The notes beneath the pieces are model-generated. The model searched no databases. It saw only the letters and a list, made by a program, of their open reading frames with translations, and was not told where the DNA came from. From Streptosporangium carneum (lineage in GTDB: Bacteria; Actinomycetota; Actinomycetes; Streptosporangiales; Streptosporangiaceae), in contig NZ_BSEV01000033.1 of NCBI RefSeq assembly GCF_027922005.1, positions 1-64,000 of the forward strand: 64,000 nt of DNA, given 5' to 3'. Position 1 is the first letter of the stretch. Each line of letters begins with the position of its first letter. Shown here one piece after another: positions 24,684 to 30,169 of the stretch. The position numbers and the translations under genes are program-made.

Positions 24684-24702
24684 TTAGGTTAGGCTTACCT
24701 GA
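24684..24702 (+). promoter_or_regulatory. Iron box (DtxR/IdeR/DmdR-type operator)
   Basis: TTAGGTTAGGCTTACCTGA (24684-24702) matches the actinobacterial iron box palindrome TTAGGTTAGGCTAACCTAA closely. It sits 14 bp before the TTG start of the first siderophore gene and just downstream of a -10-like TAGGAT (24670-24675). Bound iron-loaded repressor would block transcription, so the four-gene operon should be induced by iron starvation. Confidence 0.92.
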
Positions 24703-24718
24703 TTATCGGGGGTCTGCA

Positions 24719-25876
24719 TTGCGGCTGTACCTCACCGCGCTCAAGCCGACAGACTCGGTCACCGACGGGTTCCTCCCGGCCGCGCGGGCGCTGGGCTGCG
24801 ACGTCACTGTACTGACCGACCGGCCCGAGCGCCATCTGGACTCGGGAGCCGAGGTGCTCGGATGTGACGTCCGCGACGCCCGCGCGGTGATCGACGTCAT
24901 CGCGCACCACCACGCGCCGGACGCCGTCTTCTCCAACTCCGACCACCTGCAGGCGGAGACGGCCATGGCCGCCGCGTACTTCGGCCTGCCCGGCAAGGAC
25001 TGGCGGGCCTGCGTCGCCGCGAAGAACAAGGCGCTCACCCGCAGGCGCCTCGCGGCGGCGGGCGTGGAGACCGTCCGCTCGGCGCGGCTCGCGCCGGGCG
25101 ACCCCGCGCCCGCGGACATGCCGTTTCCCCTGGTCGTCAAGCCTCGCGAGGGCGTCGCCAGCGAGGACGTCGTGCTGGTGCGGGACGAACGCGAGCTCGC
25201 CGTGGCGCTGCGGGAGATCCGGGAGCGGCGTCCCGGCGAGGCGCTGGTCGTCGAGGAGTACCTCGAAGGTCCCCTGCACACGCTGGAGACGCTCGGCGAC
25301 GGCGGCGAACCGCTGGTGCTGGGCGGGTTCAGGACCACCCTCGGGCCGCTGCCGCACTTCGTCGAGGAACGGCTCGACTGGGAGCCGCCGCCCGCGCGGG
25401 AGCACGTGCTGCGGGCGCTCTCCGCGCTGGGAGTCGGCTTCGGCGCCTGCCACACCGAATACGTGATGACGCAGGCGGGCCCCAGGATCATCGAGGTCAA
25501 CTACCGGGTGATCGGCGACCACTGCGACTTCCTCCTCGGCGACCTGCTGGGCGTCCCGCTGTTCGAGCGCGTCCTCGGCGTCCATCTGGGAGCCCCGGCC
25601 GGAGACCTGGGAGACGTCCGGGGACACGGGACCGCGCTGAGCGTGGTCGCCGGCAGGCGGGGAACCGTGGTCGCGTCGCCGGGGACGGTCGTGCCCGCCC
25701 CCGGCGACCCGGTCAGGATCTGGCACAGACCGCTGCGCGCCGTGGGCGACCGCGTGGAGCCGAACAACACCAACCGCGACTACCTGGGCGTCGTGCGCGC
25801 GATCGGCCCCGACAGGGCGAGCGTCGACGCGGCGGTGGCGGCCTTCGAGACGGACGCCCCATGGGTGATCGCGTGA
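24719..25876 (+). CDS. ATP-grasp ligase of siderophore operon (PvsA-like)
   Basis: A 385-residue ATP-grasp protein. It carries 'FPLVVKPREGVASEDVVLV' (ATP-binding Lys loop) and the catalytic 'RIIEVNYRVIGDH' metal-binding segment. An N-terminal Rossmann-like half resembles carbamoyl-phosphate/biotin carboxylase-type ligases. In the vibrioferrin pathway, PvsA is an ATP-grasp enzyme of similar size that builds an amide. The TTG start at 24719 has GGGGG at 6-base spacing; the iron box is immediately upstream. The gene overlaps the next by 16 bp or 4 bp, depending on the NIS start. The exact amine and acid substrates cannot be read from the sequence. Confidence 0.8.
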   Translation: MRLYLTALKPTDSVTDGFLPAARALGCDVTVLTDRPERHLDSGAEVLGCDVRDARAVIDVIAHHHAPDAVFSNSDHLQAETAMAAAYFGLPGKDWRACVAAKNKALTRRRLAAAGVETVRSARLAPGDPAPADMPFPLVVKPREGVASEDVVLVRDERELAVALREIRERRPGEALVVEEYLEGPLHTLETLGDGGEPLVLGGFRTTLGPLPHFVEERLDWEPPPAREHVLRALSALGVGFGACHTEYVMTQAGPRIIEVNYRVIGDHCDFLLGDLLGVPLFERVLGVHLGAPAGDLGDVRGHGTALSVVAGRRGTVVASPGTVVPAPGDPVRIWHRPLRAVGDRVEPNNTNRDYLGVVRAIGPDRASVDAAVAAFETDAPWVIA

Positions 25877-27546
25877 TCGGCGGCGACCGCGCGGCCGGAT
25901 GGGGTGGCGGAGACGACGGCGGCCACGCGGCCGGCGGGGGCGTCGGGAGCGGGCGGGAGCCGTACCTGGCCTCCCGCGTCCTGGACGCGCTGCTGCGCGA
26001 GGACTACGGCGGTCTGGCCGGGCGGATGACCAGGGGCAAGGACGGCGTCGCACTGATCCTGCCCGGCGGGCGCAGGGTGAGGCTCGTGCCGGGTTCGCTG
26101 TTCCAGGACTTCGTGGTCGCCCCCGAGGAGACACTCGGCCTGCGGGAGGTCCTGCTGGCGCTGGAGGAGGTCTCCGCGCCCGCCGACGGCCCCGGGGTCG
26201 AGGCGTTCGCCCGGGAGTGCGGGGAGGCTCTGCGCGCCCTCGACCTCCACGACGCGCACCGCGACAGGGTCCTCGCCAGGCTCCGCCACGGGACGCCCGC
26301 GGAATCCGCCACCCGCTACGAGACGCTGGCCGCCTTCGTCGACCACCCCGTCTACCCGACGGCCCGGTGCAGAACCGGCCTGTCCGACGACGACCTGACG
26401 GCGTACGCGCCCGAGTTCGCGCCCTCCTTCGAGCTGCGCTGGGCCGCCGTGCCCAGGGAACGGGCCGCGGGGGCGGAGATGCCGGGCGCGCCGGAGTTCG
26501 CCGCCGTCGGGCTGCCCGCGTCCCTGGCGGCGACACACGTGCTGTTCCCCGTGCACCCGCTCACGGTTCCCCTGGTCGAGGAGATCCCGTGGGCGACGCC
26601 GGGGCCGAAGCCGTACCTCGGGGTCACCCCGACGCTGTCGACGCGCACGGTGGCGATCGACGCCGGCACCCACGTGAAGCTGCCGCTGCCCACCAGCACC
26701 CTGGGGATGCGCAACCGGCGCTCGATCAGGCCGGGCACGCTGGCCGACGGGGCGCGGGCCGAGCTGCTGCTGCGCGAGATCCCCCATCCCGGGGTGCTCC
26801 TGGCCGACGAACAGACCTACGGCCACGCCGGGCACGAGTATCTCGGCTGGCTCGTCCGCCGCCTGCCGCCCGGCGAGATCGTCCCGGTCGCCGCGCTGCT
26901 CGCGCCCGCGCCGGGCGGCGGACGCGTCGTCGAGGAGCTCGCGGGACGCTGGTACGGAGGGGACGTGGCGCGGCTGCTCGGGGAGTATCTCCGGCTGCTG
27001 TTCGGCTTCCACGTGCGTCTCTTCGTCCGGTACGGCACGGCCCTCGAGACCCACCAGCAGAACCTCTCGCTGGTGCTGGGAGACGGCCCGCCCCGGCTGC
27101 TGGTCAAGGACAACGACGGGCTGATGACCTCTCCGGGACGCCTGCGGGCCGCGGGCCTCACGGTGCCCGATTTCGCCGACGAACGGATGCTGACCGACGA
27201 CCCGCACGCGCTCGCCGACATGTTCGTGACCATCACGCTCCACCTGGCCGCCGCGGCGGTGGCCTTCGGCGCGCTGCCGCCCCCGCACGCCTGCGCGCTG
27301 CTGCGCCACGCGCTCGGGGAGGCGCTGAACGAGCACGGAGACGACCCGATGGCCAGGCTGCTGCGGGCCAGGACCCTCGACGCCGCCAGGCTCGTCGGGA
27401 AATCGATGATCACCGCGGGAACCCTGGTGGACAAGGCGCGCACCGGGGCGCGCGACGTGAACAAGTTCTACGGCACCAGCGGCCCGAACTACCTGCGCCA
27501 GCCCCCTCATGCCATCCAGAACATGACCATGCGAAGGACGCCATGA
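25861..27546 (+). CDS. NIS synthetase 1 (IucA/IucC family)
   Basis: A 561-residue IucA/IucC-type siderophore synthetase. It activates a carboxylate as an acyl-adenylate and condenses it with an amine or alcohol. The adenylation site segments are visible: 'DHPVYPTARCRTG' (the HP-x-HP-like region), 'TLSTRTVAID ... HVKL', 'ETHQQNLSLVL' and 'LVKDNDGLM'. The first start ATG 25861 overlaps the ATP-grasp gene by 16 bp; GTG 25873 would give the 4-bp GTGA overlap used by the other junctions, so it is an alternative. The substrate class (A, B or C) is not assigned. Membership in the iron-box operon supports the role. Confidence 0.88.
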   Translation: MGDRVIGGDRAAGWGGGDDGGHAAGGGVGSGREPYLASRVLDALLREDYGGLAGRMTRGKDGVALILPGGRRVRLVPGSLFQDFVVAPEETLGLREVLLALEEVSAPADGPGVEAFARECGEALRALDLHDAHRDRVLARLRHGTPAESATRYETLAAFVDHPVYPTARCRTGLSDDDLTAYAPEFAPSFELRWAAVPRERAAGAEMPGAPEFAAVGLPASLAATHVLFPVHPLTVPLVEEIPWATPGPKPYLGVTPTLSTRTVAIDAGTHVKLPLPTSTLGMRNRRSIRPGTLADGARAELLLREIPHPGVLLADEQTYGHAGHEYLGWLVRRLPPGEIVPVAALLAPAPGGGRVVEELAGRWYGGDVARLLGEYLRLLFGFHVRLFVRYGTALETHQQNLSLVLGDGPPRLLVKDNDGLMTSPGRLRAAGLTVPDFADERMLTDDPHALADMFVTITLHLAAAAVAFGALPPPHACALLRHALGEALNEHGDDPMARLLRARTLDAARLVGKSMITAGTLVDKARTGARDVNKFYGTSGPNYLRQPPHAIQNMTMRRTP

Positions 27547-29117
27547 CCAGCCTCGCACTCGACTCCTGCCCCGCCGCCCTCGCCGAGGAGGCGTCGGTCG
27601 CGGCGCTGCTGCGCTGCTGCGTCAGGGAGGTGGCCGGGCCGCGCGGGCAGGTCTGGCAGGCCGAGCCGTACGTGCTGCTGCGCGTGGCGGACACCCTGCT
27701 GCGGGTCAGGACGCACGGCGGGCTCGCGCTCCGCTTCGACGGCCCGCCCGAATGGCTGGAGCACGGGTGCTGGCAGCCGCTCGGCGCCGACCGGCTCGTC
27801 GGGCTCGTGGAGGCGGAGCTCGGCGGAACGGAGCTCGGCGAAAGGAACGAGGAGTTCGCCGCCCAGGTGGGCGCGAGCCGGGAGGCCATGGCGGCGCTGC
27901 TGGCCGCCAGACGGGAGACCCCCGCCCCCGCCGACCCGTGGCTGGCCTCGGAACAGGGACTGGTCCTCGGACACCCGTTCCATCCGAGCCCCAAGGCCCG
28001 TGACGGCGAGGGCTGGCTGCGCTACGCCCCCGAGGCGCACGCGAGCTTCCCGCTCAGACTGCTCGGCGTCCGCGACGACGTGCTGGCGGAGGCGGGCGAG
28101 ACCGGCGCGCTCGACGACCTGGGTCCCGCGCCCTCCGGCTACTCGCCCCTGCCCGCGCATCCGTGGCAGCTCGACCTGCTCGCGGCGGAGCTGGCCGCGC
28201 CGCTGGCCGACGGGCGGCTGATCGACCTGGGGTACGGCTCCCGCCCGGCGATCCCCACCTCGTCGGTCCGCACGGTCTACGAGCCGAGGATCGACCGGTG
28301 CCTGAAGTTCAGCCTGGACGTGCGGATCACCAACTGCGTGCGGAAGAACTCCTGGTACGAGCTGGCCGGGGCGGTCGAGCTGACCCACCGCCTCGGACCG
28401 GTCTTCGAGGACCTGTCGGCCGTCTTCCCCGGAACCCGCTGGCTCGCCGAACCCGGCTACCGCTCCGCCGAGCTGGGCACCCGGCTCCTGGAAGGGCTCA
28501 GTGTGATCATCAGAACCAGCCCGTGGTCGGTCTGCACACCGGGGGTGACCCCCCTGCTGAGCGGCGCGCTGGCCGTCCCCGGCGCCCCGCCCCCGGACCC
28601 CGTGCGCTGGTGGCGCGCCTACGTGGAGCACGTGGCGCTGCCGGTGCTGGAGGCCTACCTGAGCCACGGCGTGGTGCTGGAGCCCCACCTGCAGAACGTC
28701 CTGGTCGGCGTGGACACGTCGGGACTGCCCGTTGAGGCGATCTTCCGCGACCTGGAGGGCACCAAACTCGTCGCGGGACGGCACGACCTGTCGGGGCTGC
28801 CGGGACGGATCGCGGAGGCCCTCACCTACGATCCCGGCAGGGGCTGGGACCGGGTGGTCTACTGCCTGATGGTCAACCACCTCTCCGAGATCGCCGCCTC
28901 CCTCGCGGGGCGCGAGTCCACCAGGGAGCTGTGGGCGGTCGCCGGGGAGGTGCTGACCGGATACGCCGCCCCCAGGGGATGGCCGCGACCGCTGGCCGAC
29001 CTGCTGGCCGGGGCGCCGCTGCCCGCCAAGGCCAACCTCTCCGTCAGATGGGCGCGCTCGGCCGACCGCTCCGCCGGGTACGTCCCGGTCGCCAACCCGC
29101 TGGCGGTGCTGTCGTGA
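27543..29117 (+). CDS. NIS synthetase 2 (IucA/IucC family)
   Basis: A 524-residue second IucA/IucC synthetase, more canonical than the first: it has GHPFHPSPKAR, 'SSVRTVY', 'KFSLDVRITNCVRKNS', 'EPHLQNVLV' and 'FRDLEGTK'. Two different NIS enzymes in one operon indicate that two carboxylates of a central acid, probably citrate, are derivatised separately, as in vibrioferrin (PvsB and PvsD) or staphyloferrin B. ATG 27543 overlaps the upstream stop as ATGA. The next gene overlaps its stop as GTGA. Confidence 0.9.
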   Translation: MTSLALDSCPAALAEEASVAALLRCCVREVAGPRGQVWQAEPYVLLRVADTLLRVRTHGGLALRFDGPPEWLEHGCWQPLGADRLVGLVEAELGGTELGERNEEFAAQVGASREAMAALLAARRETPAPADPWLASEQGLVLGHPFHPSPKARDGEGWLRYAPEAHASFPLRLLGVRDDVLAEAGETGALDDLGPAPSGYSPLPAHPWQLDLLAAELAAPLADGRLIDLGYGSRPAIPTSSVRTVYEPRIDRCLKFSLDVRITNCVRKNSWYELAGAVELTHRLGPVFEDLSAVFPGTRWLAEPGYRSAELGTRLLEGLSVIIRTSPWSVCTPGVTPLLSGALAVPGAPPPDPVRWWRAYVEHVALPVLEAYLSHGVVLEPHLQNVLVGVDTSGLPVEAIFRDLEGTKLVAGRHDLSGLPGRIAEALTYDPGRGWDRVVYCLMVNHLSEIAASLAGRESTRELWAVAGEVLTGYAAPRGWPRPLADLLAGAPLPAKANLSVRWARSADRSAGYVPVANPLAVLS

Positions 29118-30169
29118 TCCCGGATGAACTGCCCGCCTACGTCTACGACCTCGCCTCACTCGACGCCCACGCGGCGGCCGTACGGGCCGCCCTGGGAGAG
29201 GTGGAGCTCTACTACGCCGTGAAGGCCAACCCCGACTCCCGGCTGCTGCGGGTGCTCGCCCGGCACGTGGACGGCTTCGAGGTCTCCTCGGGCGGGGAAC
29301 TGGCACACGTGCGCTCGCTGTTCCCCGACATCCCCGTGGCCATGGGCGGTCCGGGCAAGACCCGCGCCGAGCTGGCGGCCGACGTCACCCGCCTGCACGT
29401 GGAGAGTCCCGGTGAGTTGCGCCGCCTGCTGGAGACCGGACACCCCGCCGACGTGCTGCTACGGGTCAACCTCGACGTGCCGGTGACCGGGGCGTCGCTG
29501 GCCATGGGCGGCGGAGCGACCCCGTTCGGCATGGACCCCGACGGGATCGCCGAATGCCTGGCCCTCCTGGCCGACCGGCCAGGCCGGGGCGCCGTACGGC
29601 CGCGCGGGATCCACGCCCACCTCGCCAGCGGGCTCGACGCCCCCGCGCTGCTGGAGCTCGCGCGGGCCGTACTCGCATGCGCCAGGGAACTGGGCGTCTC
29701 GGAGGTCAACCTCGGCGGGGGCATGGCGGTGTCCTACGCCGATCCCGACACACGGTTCGACTGGCGCTCCTACGGTGAGGGCCTGGCGGAGCTGCGCCGT
29801 CAGGGAGAGGTGCTGCGCGTCGAGCCGGGACGGGCGCTGACCGCCTACTGCGGGCGGTACGTGACCCGGGTGATCGACGTGAAACGGGTCCACGGCGAGC
29901 TGTTCGCGGTGGTCGCGGGAGGCACCCACCACCTGCGCACGCCCGCCGCCAAGGGCCACTCCCAGCCCCTGTCCGGCGACCTCCCCGAGGGGGAGCCGAT
30001 CACGATCGTCGGCCAGCTCTGCACGCCCAAGGACGTCCTGGCCCGCCGTGTGCCGGTGAGCCTGGCCGTCGGAGACGTCGTGGAGTTCGCCATGGCCGGG
30101 GCGTACGCCTGGAACATCTCCCACCACGACTTCCTGATGCACCCGGAGCCCGGCTTCCACTATCTGTGA
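29114..30169 (+). CDS. PLP-dependent decarboxylase of siderophore operon (PvsE/SbnH-like)
   Basis: A 351-residue fold-III PLP decarboxylase (DAP/ornithine decarboxylase type). The PLP Lys lies in YYAVKAN (residue 37), the phosphate-binding 'NLGGGM' is at about 200, and the active-site Cys is in 'LCTPKDVLAR'. In vibrioferrin and staphyloferrin B pathways the homologues PvsE and SbnH remove a carboxylate from a citryl-linked amino acid, which supports the same role here. GTG 29114 overlaps the previous stop by 4 bp. It is the last gene of the operon; no exporter, receptor or transporter follows. Confidence 0.88.
   Translation: MIPDELPAYVYDLASLDAHAAAVRAALGEVELYYAVKANPDSRLLRVLARHVDGFEVSSGGELAHVRSLFPDIPVAMGGPGKTRAELAADVTRLHVESPGELRRLLETGHPADVLLRVNLDVPVTGASLAMGGGATPFGMDPDGIAECLALLADRPGRGAVRPRGIHAHLASGLDAPALLELARAVLACARELGVSEVNLGGGMAVSYADPDTRFDWRSYGEGLAELRRQGEVLRVEPGRALTAYCGRYVTRVIDVKRVHGELFAVVAGGTHHLRTPAAKGHSQPLSGDLPEGEPITIVGQLCTPKDVLARRVPVSLAVGDVVEFAMAGAYAWNISHHDFLMHPEPGFHYL

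Follow-up and report, generated by a model that had tools for sequence, protein, structure and literature searches.

A predicted vibrioferrin-type siderophore operon without an exporter gene in Streptosporangium carneum

We analyzed a 64,000-nt window of the 9.84-Mb genome of Streptosporangium carneum (contig C33:1-64000) and found in it four overlapping genes behind a candidate iron box. We call them A, B, D, and E after the vibrioferrin genes pvsA, pvsB, pvsD, and pvsE. We judge it likely that they form an operon that is repressed by iron and directs the synthesis of a vibrioferrin-type citrate siderophore, in an exporter-less four-gene form that is apparently like the avs cluster of Streptomyces avermitilis. 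A sequence-only reading of the window had listed an iron box, an ATP-grasp enzyme, two IucA/IucC synthetases, and a fold-III pyridoxal phosphate (PLP) decarboxylase with overlaps of 4 to 16 bp, and open reading frame calls, Pfam, and a box scan confirmed this list. Its further proposal of a citrate-based, vibrioferrin-like siderophore is supported by matches to the Pvs enzymes in gene order, by a tree that groups gene B with PvsB and gene D with PvsD and AcsD, and by the conservation of the box.

Enzymes of the operon

All four proteins matched Pfam families above cut-offs: gene A has ATP-grasp_3 and ATP-grasp_4 domains, genes B and D each have IucA_IucC and FhuF, and gene E has Orn_Arg_deC_N and Orn_DAP_Arg_deC. 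Identities and best matches given here are those within named comparison sets of clusters and solved structures. We compared complete pvsA-B-C-D-E clusters from Vibrio, Pantoea soli, Cupriavidus, Rhodococcus, and Streptomyces regalis, and in each of them the best matches followed the order PvsA, PvsB, PvsD, PvsE. The alignment to the Pvs proteins that the sequence-only reading had suggested as a check returned a one-for-one correspondence in all compared pvs clusters. Against four complete clusters (on two Vibrio plasmids, Cupriavidus pHG1, and a Rhodococcus plasmid), identities were 38-49% for A, 32-42% for B, 29-43% for D, and 41-55% for E.

Gene A is 38-60% identical, over nearly its full length, to five PvsA counterparts, and 42% identical to a Pantoea soli ATP-grasp protein whose record is labeled "siderophore biosynthesis protein PvsA." Its AlphaFold model (predicted local distance difference test [pLDDT], 93.5) is nearest to L-amino acid ligases, with 3vot as the best PDB match. 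Gene E is 42-58% identical to five PvsE proteins, compared with 39% to AcsE of Sodalis and 36% to the genome's own second decarboxylase, on contig C7.

In a tree of 25 synthetases of the nonribosomal peptide synthetase (NRPS)-independent siderophore (NIS) class, gene B fell inside the PvsB clade (support, 98/99) and gene D inside a clade of PvsD and AcsD (98/97). Among solved structures, AcsD was nearest to gene D (E 2e-56), and gene B matched weakly, best to IucC (E 7e-7); the AlphaFold model of gene B (pLDDT, 88.4) has SbnC (7cbb) as its nearest solved fold. Two Streptomyces synthetases from clusters without PvsB (L036 and L039) also fell within the gene D clade, and therefore a PvsD-like enzyme by itself is no proof of a vibrioferrin-type pathway. 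These two plasmid clusters carry a PvsD-like synthetase, a different first synthetase, and no PvsA within the stretch fetched, and L036 also has a PvsE-like gene; both are apparently other citrate-siderophore clusters.

It is very improbable that the operon makes a siderophore of another known type, whether achromobactin, staphyloferrin B, aerobactin, or desferrioxamine. NIS synthetases and a PLP decarboxylase are common to achromobactin and staphyloferrin B, but the operon has two synthetases, not three, lacks diaminobutyrate and diaminopropionate genes, and includes an ATP-grasp ligase. By Pfam, no Lys/Orn monooxygenase and no acetyltransferase is among the four genes, and genes B and E are closer to Pvs than to Acs enzymes. 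The sequence-only reading had counted best matches of all four enzymes to desferrioxamine or other non-citrate pathways as evidence against itself; the compared sets did not show this pattern, with AcsD as the closest solved structure to gene D and weak structure matches for gene B.

Iron box, distribution, and locus layout

The box pattern, allowing up to 3 mismatches, matched the S. carneum genome 19 times on the forward and 19 times on the reverse strand, compared with 1 and 0 matches for a reversed control pattern. We presume that the box belongs to IdeR/DmdR. In a survey of 113 loci (4 duplicates), of which 109 were scored and 4 were not scorable, the best box upstream of gene A had at most 2 mismatches in 84 of the 109; shuffled upstream regions (n = 2,180) never fell below 4 mismatches. 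Of the 74 distinct Streptosporangiales loci, 73 have such a box (≤2 mismatches) before gene A, and the one without it is on a truncated contig. These boxes begin mostly about 28-45 bp before the gene A start and up to 153 bp before it in Actinomadura. Most full Streptomyces pvs clusters have no box directly upstream of A, as expected because A there sits inside a longer gene run; in one locus (L141), the box is absent although no uptake genes precede A.

With gene B as the query, a search of 60 genomes gave matches at E≤1e-90 in 25 of the 37 that belong to the family, among them 16/16 Streptosporangium, and matches at E≤1e-20 were found in 30 of 394 genomes of a class-wide sample. A scan of named genomes gave at least 484 confirmed relatives, and we retained the best 80 of these; gene A had no match in a phage search. 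The gene order in related actinomycetes, which the sequence-only reading had proposed to compare, is A-B-C-D-E in the complete Streptomyces and Rhodococcus clusters compared. The same reading had drawn attention to this enzyme set in an actinomycete. The set is neither peculiar to S. carneum nor new to actinomycetes: it occurs throughout Streptosporangiales and in Streptomyces, where the S. avermitilis cluster already bears the name vibrioferrin-like. The operon type is not unusual for actinomycetes, and the operon described here is a further instance with a few odd features. A siderophore type best known from marine Gram-negative bacteria would thus be a regular trait of rare actinomycetes.

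The features of the locus are given in Table 1. Gene B may start at ATG 25861, with a 16-bp overlap with gene A, or at GTG 25873, with a 4-bp overlap and a length of 557 aa; B/D and D/E overlap by 4 bp each. One flank of the operon consists of a NudC-type NUDIX gene, an alpha/beta hydrolase gene, and a UvrD helicase gene, and the opposite flank of two UvrD-plus-nuclease (AddAB-like) genes. Flanking genes are mostly kept in 26 distinct family loci, some of them incomplete: the NudC-type gene in 24, the UvrD gene in 21, and the first AddAB-like gene in 15.

Table 1. Coordinates of the iron box, the four genes, and the gene B motif in the window
Feature	Position	Strand	Basis or remark
Candidate iron box TTAGGTTAGGCTTACCTGA	24684..24702	+	1 mismatch to TTAGGTWAGSCTNACCTAA; begins 35 bp before gene A TTG start
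Gene A, pvsA-like ATP-grasp ligase, 385 aa, L-amino-acid-ligase fold	24719 (TTG)..25876	+	Pfam, alignments, AlphaFold
Gene B, pvsB-like IucA/IucC synthetase, 561 aa	25861..27546	+	Pfam, tree, AlphaFold
Codons of gene B motif KDNDGLM	27106..27126	+	Motif ends in Arg in PvsB outside Streptosporangiales
Gene D, pvsD-like, AcsD-related IucA/IucC synthetase, 524 aa	27543..29117	+	Pfam, tree
Gene E, pvsE-like fold-III PLP decarboxylase, 351 aa	29114 (GTG)..30169	+	Pfam, pairwise identities

The decarboxylase gene is not always part of the operon. A PvsE ortholog (≥61%) is present in all 25 operon-bearing genomes of the family; it is unlinked in 10 of these and inverted beside the operon in 3. In two genomes (G014 and G004), short pvsE fragments that contain an in-frame stop lie no more than about 8 kb from the operon and are probably remnants. 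In a tree of decarboxylases, 11 of 13 unlinked copies group with two inverted ones (94/93, below the starred support level).

Proposed pathway, product, and transport

We propose the following pathway by analogy with the Pvs enzymes. At low iron, a repressor of the IdeR/DmdR1 type would leave its site at 24684, and A, B, D, and E would be transcribed together as a single message. The PvsD-like synthetase would join citrate and L-serine as a citrate-serine ester, a step modeled on AcsD, which we take to make this ester. The PvsE-like enzyme would then decarboxylate the citrate-serine product to give an ethanolamine unit, the PvsA-like ATP-grasp ligase would add L-alanine, and the PvsB-like synthetase would cap the alanine amine with a carboxylic acid. 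This acid is 2-oxoglutarate in vibrioferrin and possibly another here; SbnC, the nearest fold of gene B, is presumably a user of 2-oxoglutarate. The ferric complex may re-enter the cell via an iron-boxed ATP-binding cassette (ABC) system on contig C39.

Several results weigh against this reading. None of the four proteins reached the cut-off of any NCBIfam model. A PvsC query from S. regalis, which as a positive control found itself (100%, 789 bits), had its best match in the S. carneum genome at E 2e-4, and its best match across 18 family genomes (S. carneum and 17 others) was 29% identical at E 6e-9. Neither search gave a PvsC ortholog, and therefore the product has no known way out. PvsB of Streptosporangiales has Leu or Met in place of an Arg, a change that may point to a product other than vibrioferrin. 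No iron box (≤4 mismatches) lies within 400 bp of unlinked pvsE in any of 13 readable loci (the 14th is cut by a contig end upstream), which goes against a simple iron-controlled regulon. A substrate-binding protein (SBP) of the C39 type is lacking at E≤1e-40, or only 38-39% identical, in 6 of the 25 operon-bearing genomes. Finally, two reviews give the ester step to PvsA and free serine to PvsE, an assignment that differs from ours (PMC6836290, PMC5577590); the second, from 2017, states that the functions of the Pvs enzymes remain untested (PMC5577590).

The altered residue may bear on the identity of the product. Outside Streptosporangiales, 378 positions of PvsA, PvsB, PvsD, and PvsE are conserved at ≥95%, and 20 of these are changed inside the order (A, 2; B, 4; D, 7; E, 7), where changed means that the original residue is in under half of the rows or that another is fixed in ≥80%. 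At the PvsB position three residues past KDxD, 71 of the 74 Streptosporangiales rows have Leu and the other 3, among them the one from the window, have Met; 33/33 rows outside the order have Arg, whether or not pvsC is present (counted by alignment column in 107 rows). The equivalent position holds a basic residue (Lys or Arg) in PvsD, AcsA, AcsC, and AcsD rows; the two synthetases of a predicted hydroxamate cluster on contig C7 have Tyr or Asn there. Its neighboring motif suggests that the residue lies in the active site. A link between the Arg change and the loss of pvsC was considered and rejected, as 15/15 pvsC-less loci outside Streptosporangiales keep Arg.

Authentic vibrioferrin, the compound of Vibrio parahaemolyticus, is a serious possibility for the product, but not one that we would assume. 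The genes and their order correspond to pvsABDE one for one, and 20 of the 378 conserved positions are altered across a whole order. Against it stand the missing PvsC and the loss of a basic residue in PvsB that is kept in all rows outside the order and, as Lys or Arg, in three Sodalis Acs synthetases. The same substitution would fit a vibrioferrin analogue, made if PvsB of Streptosporangiales now uses a different acid or acceptor and attaches a cap other than 2-oxoglutarate. The uniform Leu/Met and the basic residues of the related synthetases point that way, as does the Tyr/Asn in the C7 pair; however, this is a single residue judged from sequence, and many other PvsB positions are invariant, so that we regard an analogue as possible but tentative.

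Whichever of these compounds the predicted vibrioferrin-type pathway yields, its release must be considered. Unlike vibrioferrin clusters, the operon has no PvsC exporter of the major facilitator superfamily (MFS) between B and D. The sequence-only reading had noted the absence of exporter and uptake genes, which holds for the surroundings of the operon, and had placed export elsewhere in the genome, which fails for the known exporter. In two pvsC-less Streptomyces genomes, the same PvsC query gave only E 2e-6 and 4e-5, and a Rhodococcus PvsC query, run without a positive control, gave 0/22 family genomes at E≤1e-10. None of the 73 Streptosporangiales loci in a 103-locus tree has pvsC, and on this tree the trait needs at least 8 changes. 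Of 15 actinobacterial pvsC loci (Streptomyces, Kitasatospora, Nocardia, and Rhodococcus), 13 also carry A, B, D, and E; in the other two, from Nocardia and one Streptomyces, the contigs end after pvsC. A pvs-type SBP is found in 13 of the 15.

No exporter or multitransmembrane neighbor is conserved beside the operon or the unlinked pvsE genes. An iron-boxed protein with 10 transmembrane segments on contig C2 was considered as an exporter and rejected, as it is an ammonium transporter. At this locus (L170; box at C2:149075), Pfam identifies an iron-boxed siderophore SBP gene divergent from genes for the ammonium transporter, P-II, and a GlnD-type protein. The same arrangement, by similarity, in L187 and L188 hints at joint iron and nitrogen control in three genomes.

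The product might instead stay inside the cell as an iron chelator or buffer. This would fit the absence of PvsC from all Streptosporangiales tree loci and from 18 family genomes and the lack of a conserved multitransmembrane gene adjoining the operon. We consider it improbable, as unrelated exporters are common and beyond exclusion by homology, pvsC-less Streptomyces loci nest among pvsC-bearing ones with many retaining a FhuF_C-type gene, and an iron-boxed uptake locus co-occurs with the operon in part.

For uptake of a secreted vibrioferrin-type siderophore, the locus on contig C39 is a plausible receptor. Here, an iron-boxed SBP gene lies divergent from genes for two FecCD-type permeases and an ATPase. 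The SBP is 52% identical to the Rhodococcus pvs SBP; the ATPase is 58% and the permeases are 51 and 42% identical to those of S. regalis. An SBP ortholog (≥69%) is present in 19/25 operon-bearing and 0/12 operon-less family genomes, and 5 of the latter 12 have distant C39-type SBPs (41-52%). This co-occurrence is suggestive only, because the genomes are related, and the SBP tree leaves the orthology of the C39 protein unsettled.

Genes that may act in iron release occur beside related clusters. Nineteen Streptomycetaceae pvs loci (Streptomyces L138-L166; e.g., L139:2708-3553) have, upstream on the opposite strand, a gene for a protein of about 280 aa, and both members of this family checked by Pfam (2 of 19) have the FhuF 2Fe-2S C-terminal (FhuF_C) domain. 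A SIP-type cluster takes that place in two loci (1 checked), e.g., L037. Such genes point to ferric-siderophore reduction, and the FhuF_C gene is perhaps a dedicated ferric reductase.

A broader proposal, which we put forward as rather unlikely, is that Streptosporangiales form a distinct branch of the vibrioferrin pathway, in which the exporter was lost for good, the decarboxylase gene left the operon in part of the genus, the PvsB active site was changed from Arg to Leu/Met, and a new citrate siderophore, not vibrioferrin, leaves by another route. One fixed PvsB change and a decarboxylase gene outside the operon in some species offer a natural experiment in the chemistry of the Pvs enzymes, and they come with the question of how a carboxylate siderophore leaves a Gram-positive cell without the usual exporter.

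Relation to other siderophore systems

The S. carneum genome holds further probable siderophore loci. A second NIS cluster behind an iron box on contig C7 (about 336-349 kb; L043:16420-20000 and L044:1-8746) encodes a fold-III decarboxylase, a class-III aminotransferase, a PLP decarboxylase, an NIS synthetase, a Lys/Orn monooxygenase, an MFS protein, another NIS synthetase, and a glutamine-synthetase-like protein, and it looks like a hydroxamate-citrate siderophore cluster. At about 323 kb of the same contig (L043:2973-6432), two adjoining iron boxes precede chorismate-binding and AMP-ligase genes, likely a catecholate siderophore cluster. Contig C18 (L045-L047) has genes of >2,400 codons, which we presume to be NRPS genes, next to several iron boxes and genes for two uptake systems, a Lys/Orn monooxygenase, and a chorismate-binding enzyme; this is likely a further siderophore cluster.

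Among known systems, desferrioxamine and aerobactin need a hydroxylase and an acyltransferase in addition to synthetases of the IucA/IucC or DesD type, and by Pfam neither is among the four genes of the operon. The achromobactin cluster of Sodalis plasmid pSG1 (L189) is closer: its AcsD and AcsE are close to genes D and E, and the sequence that comes nearest to the PvsB clade from outside is its AcsA, although on a long branch. The Sodalis cluster differs in having three NIS synthetases, a diaminobutyrate transaminase, and no ATP-grasp enzyme listed, whereas the Streptosporangium operon has two synthetases and no transaminase.

The pvsABCDE clusters of Vibrio, Pantoea, Cupriavidus, and Rhodococcus share with the Streptosporangium operon the order A-B-D-E and nearly full-length similarity; the operon departs from them in lacking PvsC, in having no receptor or uptake genes alongside, and in its altered PvsB motif. 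On large plasmids of Cupriavidus necator H16 (pHG1, L040) and Rhodococcus WAY2 (L038), full pvsABCDE-like clusters are followed by a gene of the aldolase/citrate lyase family (SbnG-like). In Streptomyces and Kitasatospora, full pvs clusters (e.g., L139, L163, and L166) encode the same four enzymes at about 42-61% identity. They differ in carrying pvsC between B and D, and most also have permeases, an ATPase, and an SBP upstream in the same gene run.

In the literature examined, an antiSMASH region of a Streptomyces is listed as vibrioferrin, 18% (PMC7385001), and no functional report of a product from an actinomycete was found beyond the naming of avsABCD (SAV7320-7323) in S. avermitilis as a "vibrioferrin-like polyhydroxycarboxylate siderophore" cluster (PMC9394381). 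The avs genes are described there as three "siderophore synthetase components" and a diaminopimelate-type decarboxylase, without an exporter among the four (PMC9394381). This four-gene, exporter-less make-up agrees with that of the Streptosporangium operon at the level of gene descriptions, in which no avs component was seen to be identified as an ATP-grasp enzyme. One difference from such clusters lies in PvsB: the exporter-less Streptomyces loci compared keep the Arg (15/15), whereas the Streptosporangium operon has Met.

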